This document shows positions 17,142-43,275 of a DNA stretch of 64,000 nucleotides, in pieces. The translations under genes were made by a program, and so were the position numbers. The number at the start of each line of letters is the position of its first letter. Position 1 is the stretch's first letter. Source of the DNA: Acidobacteriota bacterium (lineage in GTDB: Bacteria; Acidobacteriota; Vicinamibacteria; Vicinamibacterales; UBA2999); NCBI GenBank assembly GCA_030697165.1, contig JAUYQQ010000003.1, positions 124,001-188,000 on the forward strand. The letters run 5' to 3'. Below the pieces are notes generated by a model that saw nothing but the letters and a program-made list of their open reading frames with translations, made no database searches and was not told where the DNA came from.

Positions 17142-18388
17142 GCGACTCCCGACTCCCGACTCCCACCTCCGCCAAGGCTTCGGCGGGCGAGCCCGACTCC
17201 CGGCGACTAAACATCGTCCACGTCTGCGACCACCTCGGGTGGGAAGGGTCGCGCATGCACGGCGTGAAGCGGCTGTTTGCGTGGATGATCCCGCGGTTCG
17301 ATGCCTCGCGCTTCAACGTCTCGCTGATCAGCCTGCGCCAGAAAGACTTGTCGGCCGACACGCTCGAAGAGTTCGGCATTGACGTCACCTACATGGCGCG
17401 GCACAAGTTCGATCCGGCGACGTTCACCGCAATGCTGAAGGTGCTGCGCGACAAGCAGGCCGACCTCGTGCACCTGCACGGCTATGGCGCGACAACGTTC
17501 GGGCGGTTGTGCGCGTGGCGGATGGGGATTCCGGCAATCCTGCACGAGCACGCGAACCATACCGATACGCCGTGGTTCCAGAAAGTCGCCGACAAGATCC
17601 TCGCGCCGCACACCGACCTGGCGATCGCAGTGTCGGAGTCGACGGGGGAGTTCACCACCCGCGCCCGGCTGATGCCGGCCGAACGGACGAAGGTGGTCTA
17701 CCTCGGCGCGCCGCTCGATGAGTTTGCGCGGCCCCGCAGTGTCGCAGAGATTGCCAAGGCAAAGCAGGCCCTCGGGATTGCCCCCGGCACGATGGCGCTC
17801 GGCACCATCACGCGCTTGATGCCGTCGAAGGGCAATCAATACCTGATCGAGGCCGCGCCCAAGGTCCTGGCCAAGCATCCGCATGCGCGGTTCTTCATTG
17901 TCGGCGAAGGCGAGTTGCAGCCGGAACTGGAGGCGCAGGCGCGGGCGCTCAATTTGGGCGACAAGCTGGTGTTCACCGGCTTCACGCGCGACGTGGCCGC
18001 CGCGCTCTCGGCCCTCGACATCGTCGTGTTTCCGTCGCTGTGGGAAGGCACGCCGCTCACGATGTTCGAGGCCCTCGCCATGGGCAAACCGATTGTCGCG
18101 ACCGACGCCGATGGCCTGTTGGACGTGCTGACCGATGGCCGCGACGCCCTGGTCGTGCCCAAGGCCAGTGCCGGCCGCCTGGCCGACGCCATCTGCCGGC
18201 TGGTCGAGGAGCCGCAACTGGCCGCTGCCCTGGGCGCCCAATCCCGCAAGACCGGCGCCCGTTACGATATTGCCGCGTTCGTCCGCAAGATGGAGCGGCT
18301 CTATGTGATGTTGCACGAAACCTCGCGCGCGACCGGCCGAGCGGGTATCCTGCAAGCCGACTTGAGTTTCCTGACCACCGAACGATGA
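17138..18388 (+). CDS. glycosyltransferase family 4 with repeat-encoded N-terminus
   Basis: 416 aa, GTG start overlapping the upstream stop (GTGA). The GT-B domain starts at ~residue 26 (LNIVHVCDHLGWEGSRMHGV). The donor half has LGTITRLMPSKGNQYLIEAA, RFFIVGEGELQPELE and VVFPSLWEGTPLTMFEALAM, the EX7E motif of GT4. The first ~25 residues (SDSRLPTPTSAKASAGEPDS) are encoded by a dispersed repeat at 17144-17204 and have no counterpart in the fold, so the ancestral start was probably just downstream. It acts with its neighbours in surface-glycan assembly. Confidence 0.85.
   Translation: MSDSRLPTPTSAKASAGEPDSRRLNIVHVCDHLGWEGSRMHGVKRLFAWMIPRFDASRFNVSLISLRQKDLSADTLEEFGIDVTYMARHKFDPATFTAMLKVLRDKQADLVHLHGYGATTFGRLCAWRMGIPAILHEHANHTDTPWFQKVADKILAPHTDLAIAVSESTGEFTTRARLMPAERTKVVYLGAPLDEFARPRSVAEIAKAKQALGIAPGTMALGTITRLMPSKGNQYLIEAAPKVLAKHPHARFFIVGEGELQPELEAQARALNLGDKLVFTGFTRDVAAALSALDIVVFPSLWEGTPLTMFEALAMGKPIVATDADGLLDVLTDGRDALVVPKASAGRLADAICRLVEEPQLAAALGAQSRKTGARYDIAAFVRKMERLYVMLHETSRATGRAGILQADLSFLTTER
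17144..17204. repeat. dispersed repeat, family 2, in the 5' end of a GT4 gene
   Basis: The core TCCGCCAAGGCTTCGGCGGG (17168-17187) is flanked by short CGACTCCC tandem units. The inverse-oriented relative is CCGCCGTAGCCTTGGCGAAGG at 40490-40510. It is translated in frame as TSAKASAGEP. Confidence 0.65.
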
Positions 18389-39526: not shown

Positions 39527-39540
39527 TTGGGAAAACGTTG

Positions 39541-40473
39541 ATGTCCACTTATCTCGTGACCGGCGGTGCCGGCTTCATCGGCTCTCACCTGTCGGCCGCG
39601 CTCGCCGCCCGCGGCCACCGCGTGCGGGTCGTCGACAACCTGGTGACCGGCTTTGAGCACAACCTGCAGCCGGGCGTGGAGTTCACGGCCGGCGACCTGG
39701 CCGAGGCCGACACGGCCGCGGCGGCGGTGGTGGGTGTCGACTACGTGCTGCACCAGGCCGCCATTCCGTCGGTGCCGCGCTCGGTCAAGAATCCGCGCGA
39801 GTCGCACCGGGCCAACGTCGACGGCATGCTCAACATCCTGGTGGCGGCCAAAGACGCGGGCGTCAAGCGCATCGTGTTCGCCGGGTCGTCGTCGGTCTAT
39901 GGCGACCAGCCGACGCTGCCCAAGCGCGAAGACATGCCCACCAAGCCGATGACGCCGTACGCGTTGCAGAAGCTGGTCAGCGAGCAATACGGGCAGATGT
40001 TCACGCGCCTCTATGGGCTGGAAGTCGTGACCACGCGCTATTTCAATGTGTTTGGGCCGCGGCAGGATCCCGGCTCACCGTACTCCGGCGTGATCTCGTT
40101 GTTCATCAAGTCGCTGCTCGATGGCACGCGACCGGTGATCTACGGCGACGGCGGCCAGACTCGCGACTTCACGTTTGTGAGCAATGTCGTGGACGGCGTG
40201 CTGCGCGCGGCCGAGACGCCTGGCGTGGGCGGGGAAGTCTTCAACGTGGCGACCGGCGGGCGCGTGTCGCTCAACGAGCTGCTGACGACGCTGAAGAAGA
40301 TCATCGGGTCTGACGTCGACGCGATCTACGAGGAGGCGCGGACCGGTGACGTGCGCGATTCGCAGGCTGACATCGCGAAAGCCGAGCGCCTGCTCGGCTA
40401 CCGGCCGACGGTGACGCTCGAGGACGGGCTTCGCCAGACCGTGGCCTGGTTCCGCTCCGCGTCGTCTATGTAG
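39541..40473 (+). CDS. UDP-sugar 4-epimerase-like (GalE/WbpP type)
   Basis: 310 aa from ATG 39541; a TTG three bases upstream is also possible. Rossmann motif YLVTGGAGFIGSHL, VLHQAAIPSVPRSV, FAGSSSVYGD, active-site YALQK (YxxxK), RYFNVFGPRQDP and TRDFTFVSNVVDGV. This is an extended SDR close to UDP-GlcNAc/UDP-glucose 4-epimerases, feeding surface glycans. Its stop codon and last Met are contributed by a dispersed repeat that begins at 40468. It converges on, and overlaps by 76 nt, the phosphatase-like gene. Confidence 0.85.
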   Translation: MSTYLVTGGAGFIGSHLSAALAARGHRVRVVDNLVTGFEHNLQPGVEFTAGDLAEADTAAAAVVGVDYVLHQAAIPSVPRSVKNPRESHRANVDGMLNILVAAKDAGVKRIVFAGSSSVYGDQPTLPKREDMPTKPMTPYALQKLVSEQYGQMFTRLYGLEVVTTRYFNVFGPRQDPGSPYSGVISLFIKSLLDGTRPVIYGDGGQTRDFTFVSNVVDGVLRAAETPGVGGEVFNVATGGRVSLNELLTTLKKIIGSDVDAIYEEARTGDVRDSQADIAKAERLLGYRPTVTLEDGLRQTVAWFRSASSM

Positions 40474-41714
40474 TGTCCGCCTTCTTGACCGCCGTAGCCT
40501 TGGCGAAGGTGGTTAGGCGGACCTTCGAGCGGCACCTTCCCGTCTTCGTAGATGGCGGTGAGTACGTCGCCTTCGATCAGCAGGGCCGACGCGCGGCCCT
40601 TGTAATAGCTCAACATCCCCGTATCGATCAGGATCGCGCGGCCACCGAAGCGGGCGTTGATCCGCCGGTTCTGCTGCGGCGTGTGGCCAGTTACGAACCG
40701 CCTGGCGTCGTACCGCTGCAGCAGCGCCGCGAACGGCCCGCCACTCGCGTCGTCTGGCAGCGTGGCGAGTCCGCGATACCAGAGCGGGCCGTCGCCGGCC
40801 ACCACCAGCCACGTGTCGATCTTCAGGATCTCCTGCGCCTCGAGCAGCAACGCCGTGTTCAGCTTTGAGCGGTCAGGTTGCTTGCCTTCGGCCTGGGCCG
40901 CGGCGATCAGCGCGTTGGCGGTGCCGATTTCGTTCGAGGCGACCTGCAGGATTTCCTGCAGCGTGAAGAACGGCAGCGCGAGCTTCTGGGCCACCAGCAG
41001 GTCCCTGAACCGGTCGAGCCGCCGCACTTCGGCGCGGAGCAGGGTGTTCATGTCGTCGAACTTGGGTGGCGCGGTGTCGGGGTCGAACCCGGCGTGCATG
41101 AAGATTGAGCCTTCGTGCCGCAAGACCATGTCCTTGTCGCGCAGCCACCGGCCGTACTTCCCCTTCGGCGCGAAGGCCTCGCGATACTCGACGTAGCCGG
41201 GCGGGTGCGTGGTGAGCCACGCGTCGCGCGTTTGCCCGTAGACCGGCGGCACGGACGCGCCCTTCGCCACGCGGGCGGCCGCCAGGGCGGCGTACTGCGA
41301 CCAGGCCTCCTGGCGCCGCGCCTCGGAGTTGGCATCGGCAAAGGTGGCGAAGATCTCGCGGGTGACGTCGCGCGTATCGCCGATGAGGTTCATCACCTCA
41401 TGATTGCCAAGCAGCGACACGACGCGGCCGCCGGCCTTCCTGGCCTGCGGTTCAAGCGCCATCAGCAGGTCGAGCACGGCGCGCGTGCCGTCGCCGCGGT
41501 CGGTGTAATCGCCGGTTTGAATGAGGTGGGTGCGGCCGCCGGTCCAGCGGCCGTCAGCGCCGGTCAGTCCGGCAACCTTCAGGATCGAGGTGAACTCATC
41601 GATCGCGCCGTGGATGTCGCCGATCGCGACGACCCGCGGCGAGCCTTGCGCGGTGAGGAGTGCGGCGGGCGCACCCAGGAGCGCGCCGGCCAGCAAGGCT
41701 GCAACAATCCGCAT
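40398..41714 (-). CDS. exported PPP-like metallophosphatase
   Basis: 438 aa. Signal peptide MRIVAALLAGALLGAPAALL then TAQGSPRVV. Metallophosphatase motifs: GDIHG at 32-36, GDYTDRGDG, LGNHE, FVTGHTPQ and LIDTGM. It resembles bacterial PPP-like (Shewanella-like) phosphatases. The fold is complete at DGKVPLEG. The following ~45 residues (PPNHLRQGYGGQEGGHYIDD..) are read from a dispersed repeat and then from the antisense of the epimerase, so the original stop appears lost. It starts 2 nt after an exported kinase-like gene, and the pair looks like an operon for phosphorylation and dephosphorylation outside the cytoplasm. Confidence 0.8.
   Translation of the reverse strand: MRIVAALLAGALLGAPAALLTAQGSPRVVAIGDIHGAIDEFTSILKVAGLTGADGRWTGGRTHLIQTGDYTDRGDGTRAVLDLLMALEPQARKAGGRVVSLLGNHEVMNLIGDTRDVTREIFATFADANSEARRQEAWSQYAALAAARVAKGASVPPVYGQTRDAWLTTHPPGYVEYREAFAPKGKYGRWLRDKDMVLRHEGSIFMHAGFDPDTAPPKFDDMNTLLRAEVRRLDRFRDLLVAQKLALPFFTLQEILQVASNEIGTANALIAAAQAEGKQPDRSKLNTALLLEAQEILKIDTWLVVAGDGPLWYRGLATLPDDASGGPFAALLQRYDARRFVTGHTPQQNRRINARFGGRAILIDTGMLSYYKGRASALLIEGDVLTAIYEDGKVPLEGPPNHLRQGYGGQEGGHYIDDAERNQATVWRSPSSSVTVGR
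40468..40523. repeat. composite palindromic repeat at convergent 3' ends
   Basis: Outer arms ATGTAGTGTCCGCC and GGCGGACC match the pattern of 52319-52344. Between them is the family-2 core CCGCCGTAGCCTTGGCGAAGG. It supplies ATG TAG as the last two codons of the epimerase and, on the other strand, the peptide LRQGYGGQEGG in the phosphatase. Confidence 0.85.
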
Positions 41715-41716
41715 CC

Positions 41717-42529
41717 CTAATCGTAGAACACAGACTCCCCGCGCTTGGCGACCATTTTATTGATCTCTTCAGCCATTTTGTCGCGCCGCAGCAAGAGCGC
41801 CTTCTTTTCCTTCTCGCCGACCCATTCCCCAAGCCCCTGGTTGAGCTGGTCGAACGTCAGCGCCTGCATCTTCGTCCACAACTGCCGGTCCACGCGGCCG
41901 AGTGGCGCCATGCCCTTGAGGTCTTTCTTGTCGATGAAGGCGCGCGAGTGGTCGATCAGGAACAGGTGCCAATCGTCGTCGTAGATCAGGTTGCCCTGGT
42001 TGCGATCGATGTTCGCGATTAGCTGATCGAACATTTTCATGCGGGTCAGCTGGATGCTCCATTTGGGCTCAGGCCCCTGCGGGGGCTTTTCGACGCTCCA
42101 TGGCTTGGTGTTCTCGACCCACAGGACCGCTGCGCCCTTCCGGCCGCTGATCGTGCGTTCGACGATGGGCGGGACCATGTGGAGGTCGAGCATGCGGTCG
42201 AACTTGTAGGCGGCGATTTCGGCCTTGTAGCTCTCCATGTAGCCCTTGCTGTAGCCGGGGTTCAGGGCCTTCCAGGCAAAGCGCTCGGCGGGGCCGCCCG
42301 GTTCGAGCGTGGCGCGCTGCGGCTTCGTGACGCCGATCGGCACCGCCTCCATCTTGAGGATCGCGCCTTCGGCGAGGTGCTTCTCGATGGCGTCTTCGTG
42401 GCCAGCCCACACCAGTGAGCACTGCGCCATCCGCTGGGTGACCGGGTTCTGCGCCGACACCGTGGCCGTGAGCACGGCCGCAGCAGCAAGGGCCGTCAGG
42501 CCGGCGGGAAGGAAAGTGTGTTTTCGCAT
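41717..42529 (-). CDS. exported kinase-like protein (HipA/FAM20/PI-kinase-like fold)
   Basis: 270 aa from ATG 42529, with AGAGGA 7 nt upstream; another ATG at 42535. Signal peptide MRKHTFLPAGLTALAAAAVL then TATVSAQ. GVTKPQRATLEPGG with FAWK (K87) resembles the ATP-anchoring strand; EIAAYKFDRML carries a likely helix-C glutamate; VPPIVERTISGRKGAA; the catalytic loop NIDRNQGN (D175, N177, N180) and metal-site LIDHSRAF (D193) follow the pattern of HipA, FAM20 and PI3/4-kinase-like enzymes. A cytoplasmic enzyme would not carry this leader, so it is probably periplasmic or surface. The gene is 2 nt upstream of the phosphatase gene. Kinase activity is inferred, not proved. Confidence 0.65.
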   Translation of the reverse strand: MRKHTFLPAGLTALAAAAVLTATVSAQNPVTQRMAQCSLVWAGHEDAIEKHLAEGAILKMEAVPIGVTKPQRATLEPGGPAERFAWKALNPGYSKGYMESYKAEIAAYKFDRMLDLHMVPPIVERTISGRKGAAVLWVENTKPWSVEKPPQGPEPKWSIQLTRMKMFDQLIANIDRNQGNLIYDDDWHLFLIDHSRAFIDKKDLKGMAPLGRVDRQLWTKMQALTFDQLNQGLGEWVGEKEKKALLLRRDKMAEEINKMVAKRGESVFYD

Positions 42530-42945
42530 GTTCATCCTCTGGTGGCCGATCGCCGGTGTCAGGCGCGGCGGCTCGGTCGGTCCGGATTGTAGCAGGACAC
42601 GGGAACCGCAGTTGCCTTCGGCGCAACCGCGGTTGCCCGTGGGACCCTCGCCGATCAGGCCCGAAATGGCCTTCCTCACCACCGAGAGGGAACGCGAGTT
42701 GGCGCCAGCCCACGGCCGACGCGTCCAGGACCGCGGCGGGAAACGCCGGAAGCACCCCGCGGTGAATCGGTTGCGGCGATTCACCTGAGCCGGAGCGCGC
42801 CTTGCTCTGCTGCGCACTGACTGCGCGGCTCTGTCCGCTGATGGCCGCCTGACCGTACGTCGTCATCGAACCTTCCCGCGCAGTCACCAAATCAAATCAC
42901 CAACTCACCAAATCACCACGTTACCCACTGATTAGGAGGAACCCC
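42530..42945. other. 416-nt intergenic region between divergent genes
   Basis: No convincing gene is visible. It contains a strong inverted repeat (CACGGGAACCGC at ~42597 pairing with GCGGTTGCCCGTG at ~42630), a run of TCACCAAATCA-type repeats (42887-42921) and, at its end, AGGAGG before the ATG at 42946. Promoters for both flanking genes are expected here, but none is clear. Confidence 0.5.
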
Positions 42946-43275
42946 ATGCGATCAACTCTTTCGACGGCCTTGGCCTTGTGTGCACTGCTCATCGCCGGCA
43001 CGCCGGTCGATTCGGCGCCACTTTACGCCCAGGCACCGGCGGCCGAGAAAACGACGGTCAACCTCAACGCGGCGACCCTCGATCAGCTCGCCACCCTGCC
43101 GGGCATCGGTCCCAAGGTGGCCGAGCGCATTCTCGAGTACCGAACCAAGAATGGCGGCTTCAAGAAGATCGAAGAGCTGATGAACGTAAAGGGCATCGGC
43201 GAGAAGAGCTTCCTGAAGATCAAGCCGCTTGTCAGTGTGGCCAAGCCTGACAAGGCCAGCGGTGGCGGCGAGTGA
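42946..43275 (+). CDS. ComEA-like helix-hairpin-helix DNA-binding protein, exported
   Basis: 109 aa, ATG with AGGAGG 8 nt upstream. A signal peptide is followed by a short linker, then VNLNAATLDQLATLPGIGPK and VAERILEYRTKNGGFKKIEE, LMNVKGIGEKSFLKIKPL, the double HhH of ComEA. In competent bacteria ComEA binds incoming DNA in the periplasm. The next genes are a pseudopilin and a PilZ-like protein, which fits a DNA-uptake or pilus function. It overlaps the pseudopilin start by 14 nt. Confidence 0.88.
   Translation: MRSTLSTALALCALLIAGTPVDSAPLYAQAPAAEKTTVNLNAATLDQLATLPGIGPKVAERILEYRTKNGGFKKIEELMNVKGIGEKSFLKIKPLVSVAKPDKASGGGE

Follow-up and report, generated by a model that had tools for sequence, protein, structure and literature searches.

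The question raised by this locus is whether a bacterium can run a cycle of phosphorylation and dephosphorylation outside its cytoplasm, and what would supply the ATP. The window, a stretch of 64,000 nt from an Acidobacteriota genome (assembly GCA_030697165.1, contig JAUYQQ010000003.1, forward-strand positions 124,001 to 188,000; G000:C3:124001-188000, where G000 is the window's own genome), contains two adjacent minus-strand genes, called here the window kinase and the window phosphatase (Table 1). The original prediction had read them as an exported kinase-like protein and an exported PPP-like phosphatase, encoded two nucleotides apart, with the kinase residues K87, N-I-D175-R-N177-Q-G-N180 and LID193H and the phosphatase motifs GDIHG, GDYTDRG and GNHE; both frames are open from end to end, the two-nucleotide gap is confirmed, and every one of these residues and motifs is found at its expected position. 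The safest claim is that the pair comprises an exported FAM20-like kinase and an exported Shelph phosphatase that would share a common substrate pool. Further, with a probability of roughly 0.6, the two form an extracytoplasmic module for reversible phosphorylation, whose ATP would most likely be delivered by TLC/NTT exchangers.

The predicted structure of the window kinase, built on a 41-sequence alignment, has a kinase core and a mean predicted local distance difference test score (pLDDT) of 90.3, with a predicted template modelling score (pTM) of 0.84. Its nearest structural relatives are FAM20 proteins, which occupied all of the first 25 rows of a Foldseek search (best 1.6e-9), with PI4KII next. 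In particular, VIA-align comparisons gave hydra Fam20 as the best match (Z = 21.1 over 242 residues, root-mean-square deviation (rmsd) 3.5), tied with FAM20C (Z = 20.1 to 20.7) and followed by FAM20A (18.6 to 19.1), PI4KII (up to 17.9), H. pylori CtkA (15.2), and HipT and HipA (about 12). A profile of the bacterial kinases, compared to PDB sequences, produced a similar ranking: FAM20A (3.6e-12), hydra Fam20 (8.4e-10), FAM20C (2e-9) and worm Fam20 (3.5e-6) all preceded PI4KII (4e-4). By predicted fold and conserved residues, the gene is predicted to encode a FAM20-like kinase.

The catalytic Lys, the Kbeta3-Kalpha3 Glu, the catalytic Asp and the metal-binding Asp of FAM20 are all present, as K87, E99, D175 and D193, where K87 is assigned from its place in model strand 83-87 and not from a residue-level structure alignment. 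E99 aligns to a Glu in FAM20C and to a Gln in FAM20A, and the flanking sequence suggests that this Gln is residue 258; according to the available part of PMC5413348, the FAM20 Glu is essential for catalysis and Gln258 in its place marks the FAM20A pseudokinase. Orthologues of the window kinase occur in 15 other genomes of its family (45-79% identity, E < 1e-60), and K87, E99, E104, D175, N177, N180 and D193 are invariant across the resulting 16 sequences, including the four positions whose conservation the original prediction had singled out (K87, D175, N180 and D193). Among a wider set of 129 kinase relatives, 110 retain D175, N180 and D193. These numbers bear on the idea that the kinase-like protein performs no phosphotransfer and merely binds or steers the phosphatase. 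Degenerate relatives do exist: seven of the 129 have a Cys for D175 (CDD), single cases read GKD, LTD or EDD, 21 have Q at K87 together with N at E104, and D175 and N180 are both lost from three of 14 kinase domains that are fused to a phosphatase. That the window protein and every one of the 15 orthologues retain K87, E99, E104, D175, N180 and D193, and that most relatives retain D175, N180 and D193, makes such a purely regulatory role improbable.

Pfam recorded only sub-threshold matches to the window kinase, namely to PI3_PI4_kinase, HipA_2 and Fam20C; for the last (PF06702), its 16.0 bits do not reach the cut-off of 26.8. Moreover, the window kinase has a single Cys (C38), so that the disulfides of the FAM20 kinase core, described as conserved in the parts of the FAM20 literature available, cannot form. 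Because the Pfam cut-off is missed and the disulfides are absent, the protein is called FAM20-like in its fold, residues and presumed working, and is not filed as a FAM20 protein. The earlier label of "HipA/FAM20-like" therefore keeps its second half, FAM20 being nearest by both fold and profile, and loses its first: a HipA-type kinase was rejected on HipA_2 (PF20613; 16.4 bits against a cut-off of 27) and on a fold more distant than that of FAM20. A SCO1664-type protein was also rejected (TIGR03843; 39.3 against a cut-off of 172.4). Pfam CotH is absent among the matches to the window kinase up to an E-value of 1, CotH being otherwise compared by description only.

The identity of the second protein is similarly supported by its predicted structure. 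The window phosphatase matches a Shewanella cold-active phosphatase (E = 2.6e-28), and its model (residues 1-402, pLDDT 89.8, pTM 0.87) matches 1v73 over 260 residues (Z = 30.9, rmsd 2.2, 31% identity); the next phosphoprotein phosphatases (PPPs) follow at about 20.7. The PPP metal motifs, together with H207 and H344, are invariant in 15 phosphatase sequences. The window protein's LIDTG fits the motif (I/L/V)D(S/T)G, which is reported for PPP groups in the available part of PMC535813; as it is known from several of these groups, it is not specific to Shelphs. The model calculations thus point to a Shelph-type PPP phosphatase, and an ApaH nucleotidase was rejected as only a distant relative. 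The reading frame proposed originally stands in its conserved part, with its metal motifs, and fails at its end: residues from about 398 lie outside the conserved protein, and the tail after residue ~397 matches many places in the same genome. This tail is read through a dispersed repeat, whose core CTTCGCCAAGGCTACGGCGG is present at 40489-40508 and 17167-17186 of the window and at 88 sites in the genome (two mismatches or fewer), compared to one site for the reversed pattern.

The two folds leave room for more than one kind of substrate. The window kinase is about as close to the xylosylkinase Fam20 as it is to FAM20C, so that the substrate may be a protein or a glycan. One alternative is that the kinase phosphorylates a sugar or a lipid head group and that the phosphatase reverses the reaction during the assembly of an envelope polymer, yielding a biosynthetic switch instead of signalling. 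The best structural match, hydra Fam20, is listed as a glycosaminoglycan xylosylkinase, though tied with FAM20C; by structure, the lipid kinases of the PI4KII family come next; and Fam20B, which phosphorylates xylose, is placed before Fam20C in animal evolution by the part of PMC5865150 available. The nearest solved relatives of the phosphatase, in contrast, are named protein-tyrosine phosphatases, and a cycle restricted to glycans or small molecules appears rather unlikely.

Both proteins begin with N-termini that look like signal peptides by eye, as the original prediction had noted, and so do most of their relatives. A home-made heuristic, applied to the stretch just upstream of each domain in place of a trained predictor, gave a positive result for 106 of the 129 kinase relatives and for all 52 phosphatase relatives; as background, it was triggered by two of 190 segments from the interior of these proteins and by 62 of 300 other open reading frames (ORFs), antisense ones included. 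These N-termini suggest that both proteins are exported from the cytoplasm.

The evidence for a partnership comes from where the two genes occur. In the 43 genomes of the window's family, 16 have strong kinase orthologues (E < 1e-60); the phosphatase lies within about 100 bases in ten of these, 4.7-4.8 kb away in two (G001 and G005) and on another contig in four. It is also present in 18 of 37 named loci around close relatives, several of these loci being short contigs. Across 396 genomes of the phylum, surveyed with a kinase profile (E ≤ 1e-5, which also picks up paralogues) and a phosphatase profile (E ≤ 1e-10), 78 genomes have the kinase, 88 have the phosphatase and 66 have both (odds ratio 74, p = 3.5e-43). 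Counted by family, the phosphatase is found in 25 of 28 kinase families compared to nine of 58 others, taking the total as 86, the highest family number met and not a stated total. Among the matches listed, the two genes are at most 5 kb apart in at least 44 of 61 genomes with both, spanning 19 families, where about 0.4 would be expected; here and below, distance counts are lower bounds, any further fragment of a phosphatase or transporter gene already counted being left out, and chance expectations are rough values from random placement in 4.3 Mb. Further, 14 of the 129 kinase ORFs contain both domains in one open frame, with the phosphatase domain first in the maps inspected, and 11 of these 14 kinase domains keep D175, N180 and D193. 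It is difficult to account for the fusions, and for an adjacency that recurs in many families, unless the kinase and phosphatase work together. Overall, the original reading of the pair is supported: none of the contrary outcomes that it had named was observed, as the fold has a kinase core, its key residues are conserved, and its homologues do neighbour the phosphatase.

The analysis also revealed an association that the original prediction did not contain, between the pair and a transporter. In distant loci, membrane proteins adjoin the kinase-phosphatase pair, and Pfam identifies most of those analysed as TLC ATP/ADP transporters, often with HEAT repeats; PF03219 is above its cut-off in L162, L159 (two), L160, L148 (two), L158 and L140, and L150 8942-10501 has a HEAT match only, without PF03219. 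The transporter family is found in 102 of the 396 phylum genomes and is absent from all 14 control genomes. It is present in 74 of 78 kinase genomes compared to 28 of 318 others (odds ratio 192, p = 2.7e-51), and in 25 of 28 kinase families compared to 13 of 58 others; all three genes co-occur in 63 genomes from 23 families. Inside the window's family, 17 genomes have the kinase and TLC, two the kinase only, two TLC only and 22 neither (p = 1.1e-7). Both assemblies with the kinase only are incomplete: G003 has a kinase paralogue, along with part of a phosphatase where a contig ends, and in G008 the locus is decayed. Moreover, among the matches listed, TLC and a kinase are at most 10 kb apart in at least 26 of the 65 genomes that have both, from 13 families, compared to about 1 by chance; for TLC and a phosphatase, the corresponding figures are at least 29 of 66, 12 families and about 0.5. 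For example, L162, from the window's order, has a tight operon-like arrangement in which the kinase stop is followed after 5 nt by the phosphatase and then, by a one-base overlap (TAATG), by an 884-aa TLC-HEAT protein; L131 has TLC, a phosphatase, kinases and a fusion, all within 10 kb; and L140, L167 and L168 have a TLC-HEAT gene, a small ORF and a phosphatase-kinase fusion on the same strand. The small ORF of L168 has a Pfam cNMP-binding domain, and those of L140 and L167 cluster with it.

The presence of a nucleotide transporter introduces a different explanation, in which the exported phosphatase degrades external nucleotides or phosphoesters, TLC imports the nucleotides and the kinase-like protein is an accessory. 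Known NTTs import nucleotides and energy, as described in the part of PMC5381601 available, TLC occurs in 69 of 88 phosphatase genomes, and the fold of the phosphatase is distantly related to that of ApaH. However, TLC tracks the kinase more closely than the phosphatase; 11 genomes have the kinase and TLC without a phosphatase match; the phosphatase resembles Shelph far more than ApaH; and none of the kinase's catalytic residues varies among its orthologues. Nucleotide scavenging is accordingly a quite unlikely purpose for the three genes.

Several observations weigh against the preferred reading of a reversible-phosphorylation module supplied by TLC/NTT exchangers, beginning with the degenerate kinases described above. 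There is no phosphatase match in 12 of the 78 kinase genomes, and no kinase match in 22 of the 88 phosphatase genomes. The window's genome has its three TLC-HEAT genes on contigs C15 and C23, away from the pair, and of the 37 named loci of close relatives only one includes TLC; at the window locus, the transporter link is therefore phyletic only. Those NTTs whose function is known belong to parasites, endosymbionts and plastids, and the available part of PMC5381601 presents them as importers. In a second phylum (169 genomes, entered via a Myxococcaceae relative), predicted exported FAM20-like kinases are found in 31 genomes and TLC in 42, with a weak association (16 of 31 kinase genomes compared to 26 of 138 others; odds ratio 4.6, p = 4e-4). 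The kinase and TLC are 5-13 kb apart in four loci of that phylum, without forming an operon, and no phosphatase match was found in these four loci, the phylum itself having had no phosphatase survey. Finally, the Fisher tests ignore the tree, and as the surveyed genomes are related, the p-values overstate the evidence. This relatedness, together with the unlinked positions of the pair and TLC in the window's genome, would suit an explanation in which the three genes are simply common in the same clades and otherwise unrelated. Fusions, proximity in 19 families for kinase and phosphatase and in 13 for kinase and TLC, the association at the family level, and agreement between kinase and TLC in 39 of the 43 genomes of the window's family make that explanation very unlikely indeed.

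In the mechanism proposed for the reversible-phosphorylation module, the kinase (about 240 aa when mature) and the phosphatase would be made together, probably from a single transcript, and exported by their N-terminal signal peptides; a scan of 40300-42950 for sigma70-like promoters and terminators found none. Substrates in the envelope or among secreted molecules, either protein or glycan, would be phosphorylated by the kinase and dephosphorylated by the phosphatase. ATP outside the inner membrane would most likely come from TLC/NTT-type ATP:ADP exchangers, often with HEAT repeats, running an outward ATP/ADP exchange. This supply of ATP to the compartment by NTTs is the bolder claim, and the association behind it is strong inside the phylum. 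A still wider proposal, to which we give somewhat less than even odds, is that Acidobacteriota run a dedicated, ATP-fuelled compartment for envelope phosphorylation, with outward NTT exchange of ATP and ADP, FAM20-like kinases and a reversing Shelph phosphatase; the kinases would be in tandem in some lineages, with some inactive FAM20A-like paralogues, and the phosphatase sometimes fused.

Table 1. Features of the kinase-phosphatase locus, in window coordinates.
Feature	Coordinates	Strand	Details and basis
Predicted FAM20-like kinase gene	41717..42529	-	270 aa; open frame, motifs, predicted fold, profile match to FAM20A
Kinase stop codon TAG	41719-41717	-	Sequence
Kinase signal-peptide-like N-terminus, residues 1-27	42449..42529	-	By eye; heuristic on relatives; pLDDT <60 over residues 1-30
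K87 codon	42269..42271	-	Invariant in 16 orthologues
E99-SYKA-E104	42218..42235	-	E99 and E104 invariant; E99 at the FAM20C/FAM20A Glu/Gln position by alignment
Putative catalytic loop D175-RNQG-N180	41990..42007	-	Motif; conservation in orthologues and wider set
D193 codon, putative metal-binding residue (DFG-Asp equivalent)	41951..41953	-	Motif, conservation, profile alignment
Two-base intergenic gap	41715..41716	-	Sequence
Predicted Shelph-type PPP phosphatase gene	40398..41714	-	438 aa, ATG at 41714; conserved part ends near residue 397
Phosphatase signal-peptide-like N-terminus, residues 1-23	41646..41714	-	By eye; heuristic positive in 52/52 relatives
GDIHG metal motif	41607..41621	-	G, D, H and G invariant in 15
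GDYTDRG metal motif	41493..41513	-	G68, D69, D72, R73 and G74 invariant in 15
GNHE motif	41397..41408	-	Invariant in 15
Phosphatase tail read through dispersed repeat	40398..40523	-	Tail matches many genome places; repeat core counted

At the locus itself, a convergent ORF (39538-40473), epimerase-like by eye, overlaps the 3′ end of the phosphatase ORF by 76 bases (40398-40473). The spacers that separate kinase and phosphatase by 4.7-4.8 kb in G001 and G005 (L058 3361-8184 and L104 8826-13487) have no detectable sequence in common; by eye, that of L058 resembles genes for a histidine kinase, a receiver and GGDEF/EAL proteins. The decayed kinase-phosphatase remnant at L071 1354-2169 belongs to G008, a small genome from the same genus in which TLC has no match either. 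On contig C15 of the window's own genome (L159 4837-11353), two divergent TLC-HEAT genes are 55 bases apart, one of them with an extra cNMP-binding domain, and close-set TLC matches also occur in G005, G006, G009 and G010.

Kinase paralogues are varied. The group with Q and N at K87 and E104 consists of L002 1201-2058, on contig C13 of the window's own genome, and 20 relatives; its members retain D175, N180 and D193, and could, speculatively, be FAM20A-like activators. Just upstream of the window-type kinase, L124 and L126 have a further kinase ORF with a weaker score. L148, L149, L150 and L153 have tandem genes for predicted exported kinases beside a single phosphatase; members of such arrays that follow the phosphatase or are fused to it include forms with a Cys at D175. 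The second-phylum kinases in L174 and L184-L190 have motifs such as SEIAAYHLDRELG and NVDRWGG. Clustering of neighbouring ORFs across 67 loci found no obvious substrate gene. By eye, genus-level synteny consists of a ligase, a protease and an aminomethyltransferase, and distant loci have FHA/GAF/SpoIIE and cNMP-binding proteins. One neighbour family is found in seven loci (L148-L151, L153, L164 and L165), and its member L150 6785-8893, with FHA, GAF, SpoIIE and HATPase domains, hints at cytoplasmic regulation near kinase clusters.

If the ATP-fuelled compartment is real, bacteria would have their own equivalent of the secretory phosphorylation carried out in the Golgi. The phosphorylation of secreted proteins by FAM20 is treated as animal biology in the available parts of PMC5865150 and PMC9758233; a counterpart in free-living bacteria, with a phosphatase of its own, would allow bacterial envelope phosphorylation to be tested directly. 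The link to the transporter suggests an ATP source for an extracytoplasmic kinase, and would give a function to the NTT and NTT-HEAT proteins of free-living bacteria, whose role there, like that of the NTT-HEAT and cNBD fusions, is left unknown in the part of PMC5381601 available. The words "bacteria" and "prokaryot" are absent from the available part of the FAM20 evolution paper PMC5865150, which has the xylosylkinase Fam20B preceding Fam20C, and PMC7948968 contains "bacteria" once, in a reference; the kinome survey PMC9758233, in its available part, groups FAM20 with CotH and yet terms it eukaryotic- or Metazoa-specific. In the open-access literature, covered mostly as titles and starts of abstracts, no link of bacterial FAM20 relatives to a PPP phosphatase or to NTTs was found.

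Compared to known systems, the pair combines familiar parts in an arrangement of its own. HipA is cytoplasmic; it resembles the window kinase through the weak HipA_2 sequence match, and differs in that the HipA and HipT structures are weaker matches. CotH is described as FAM20C-like in the available part of PMC12189002, and, unlike the window kinase, is described for the spore coat. The window phosphatase is like the Shelphs or SLPs (2z72/1v73) in its fold, sequence identity, PPP metal motifs and LIDTG, and differs from them as the gene neighbour or fusion partner of a FAM20-like kinase. The transporters share with NTT/TLC proteins (PF03219) their HEAT repeats and, in relatives and in the window's own genome, a cNMP-binding domain or neighbour, as in the part of PMC5381601 available; the role described there is nucleotide import, whereas here they are linked to a predicted exported kinase and phosphatase. 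Finally, the window kinase is most like FAM20A/B/C (PF06702), its nearest fold (Z = 18.6 to 21.1) and nearest PDB sequences (3.6e-12 to 3.5e-6), with matching Lys, Glu and Asp positions and a signal-peptide-like N-terminus; unlike them, it is bacterial, about 240 aa when mature, below the family cut-off and without the disulfides, and bacterial kinases of this type adjoin a phosphatase or are fused to it.

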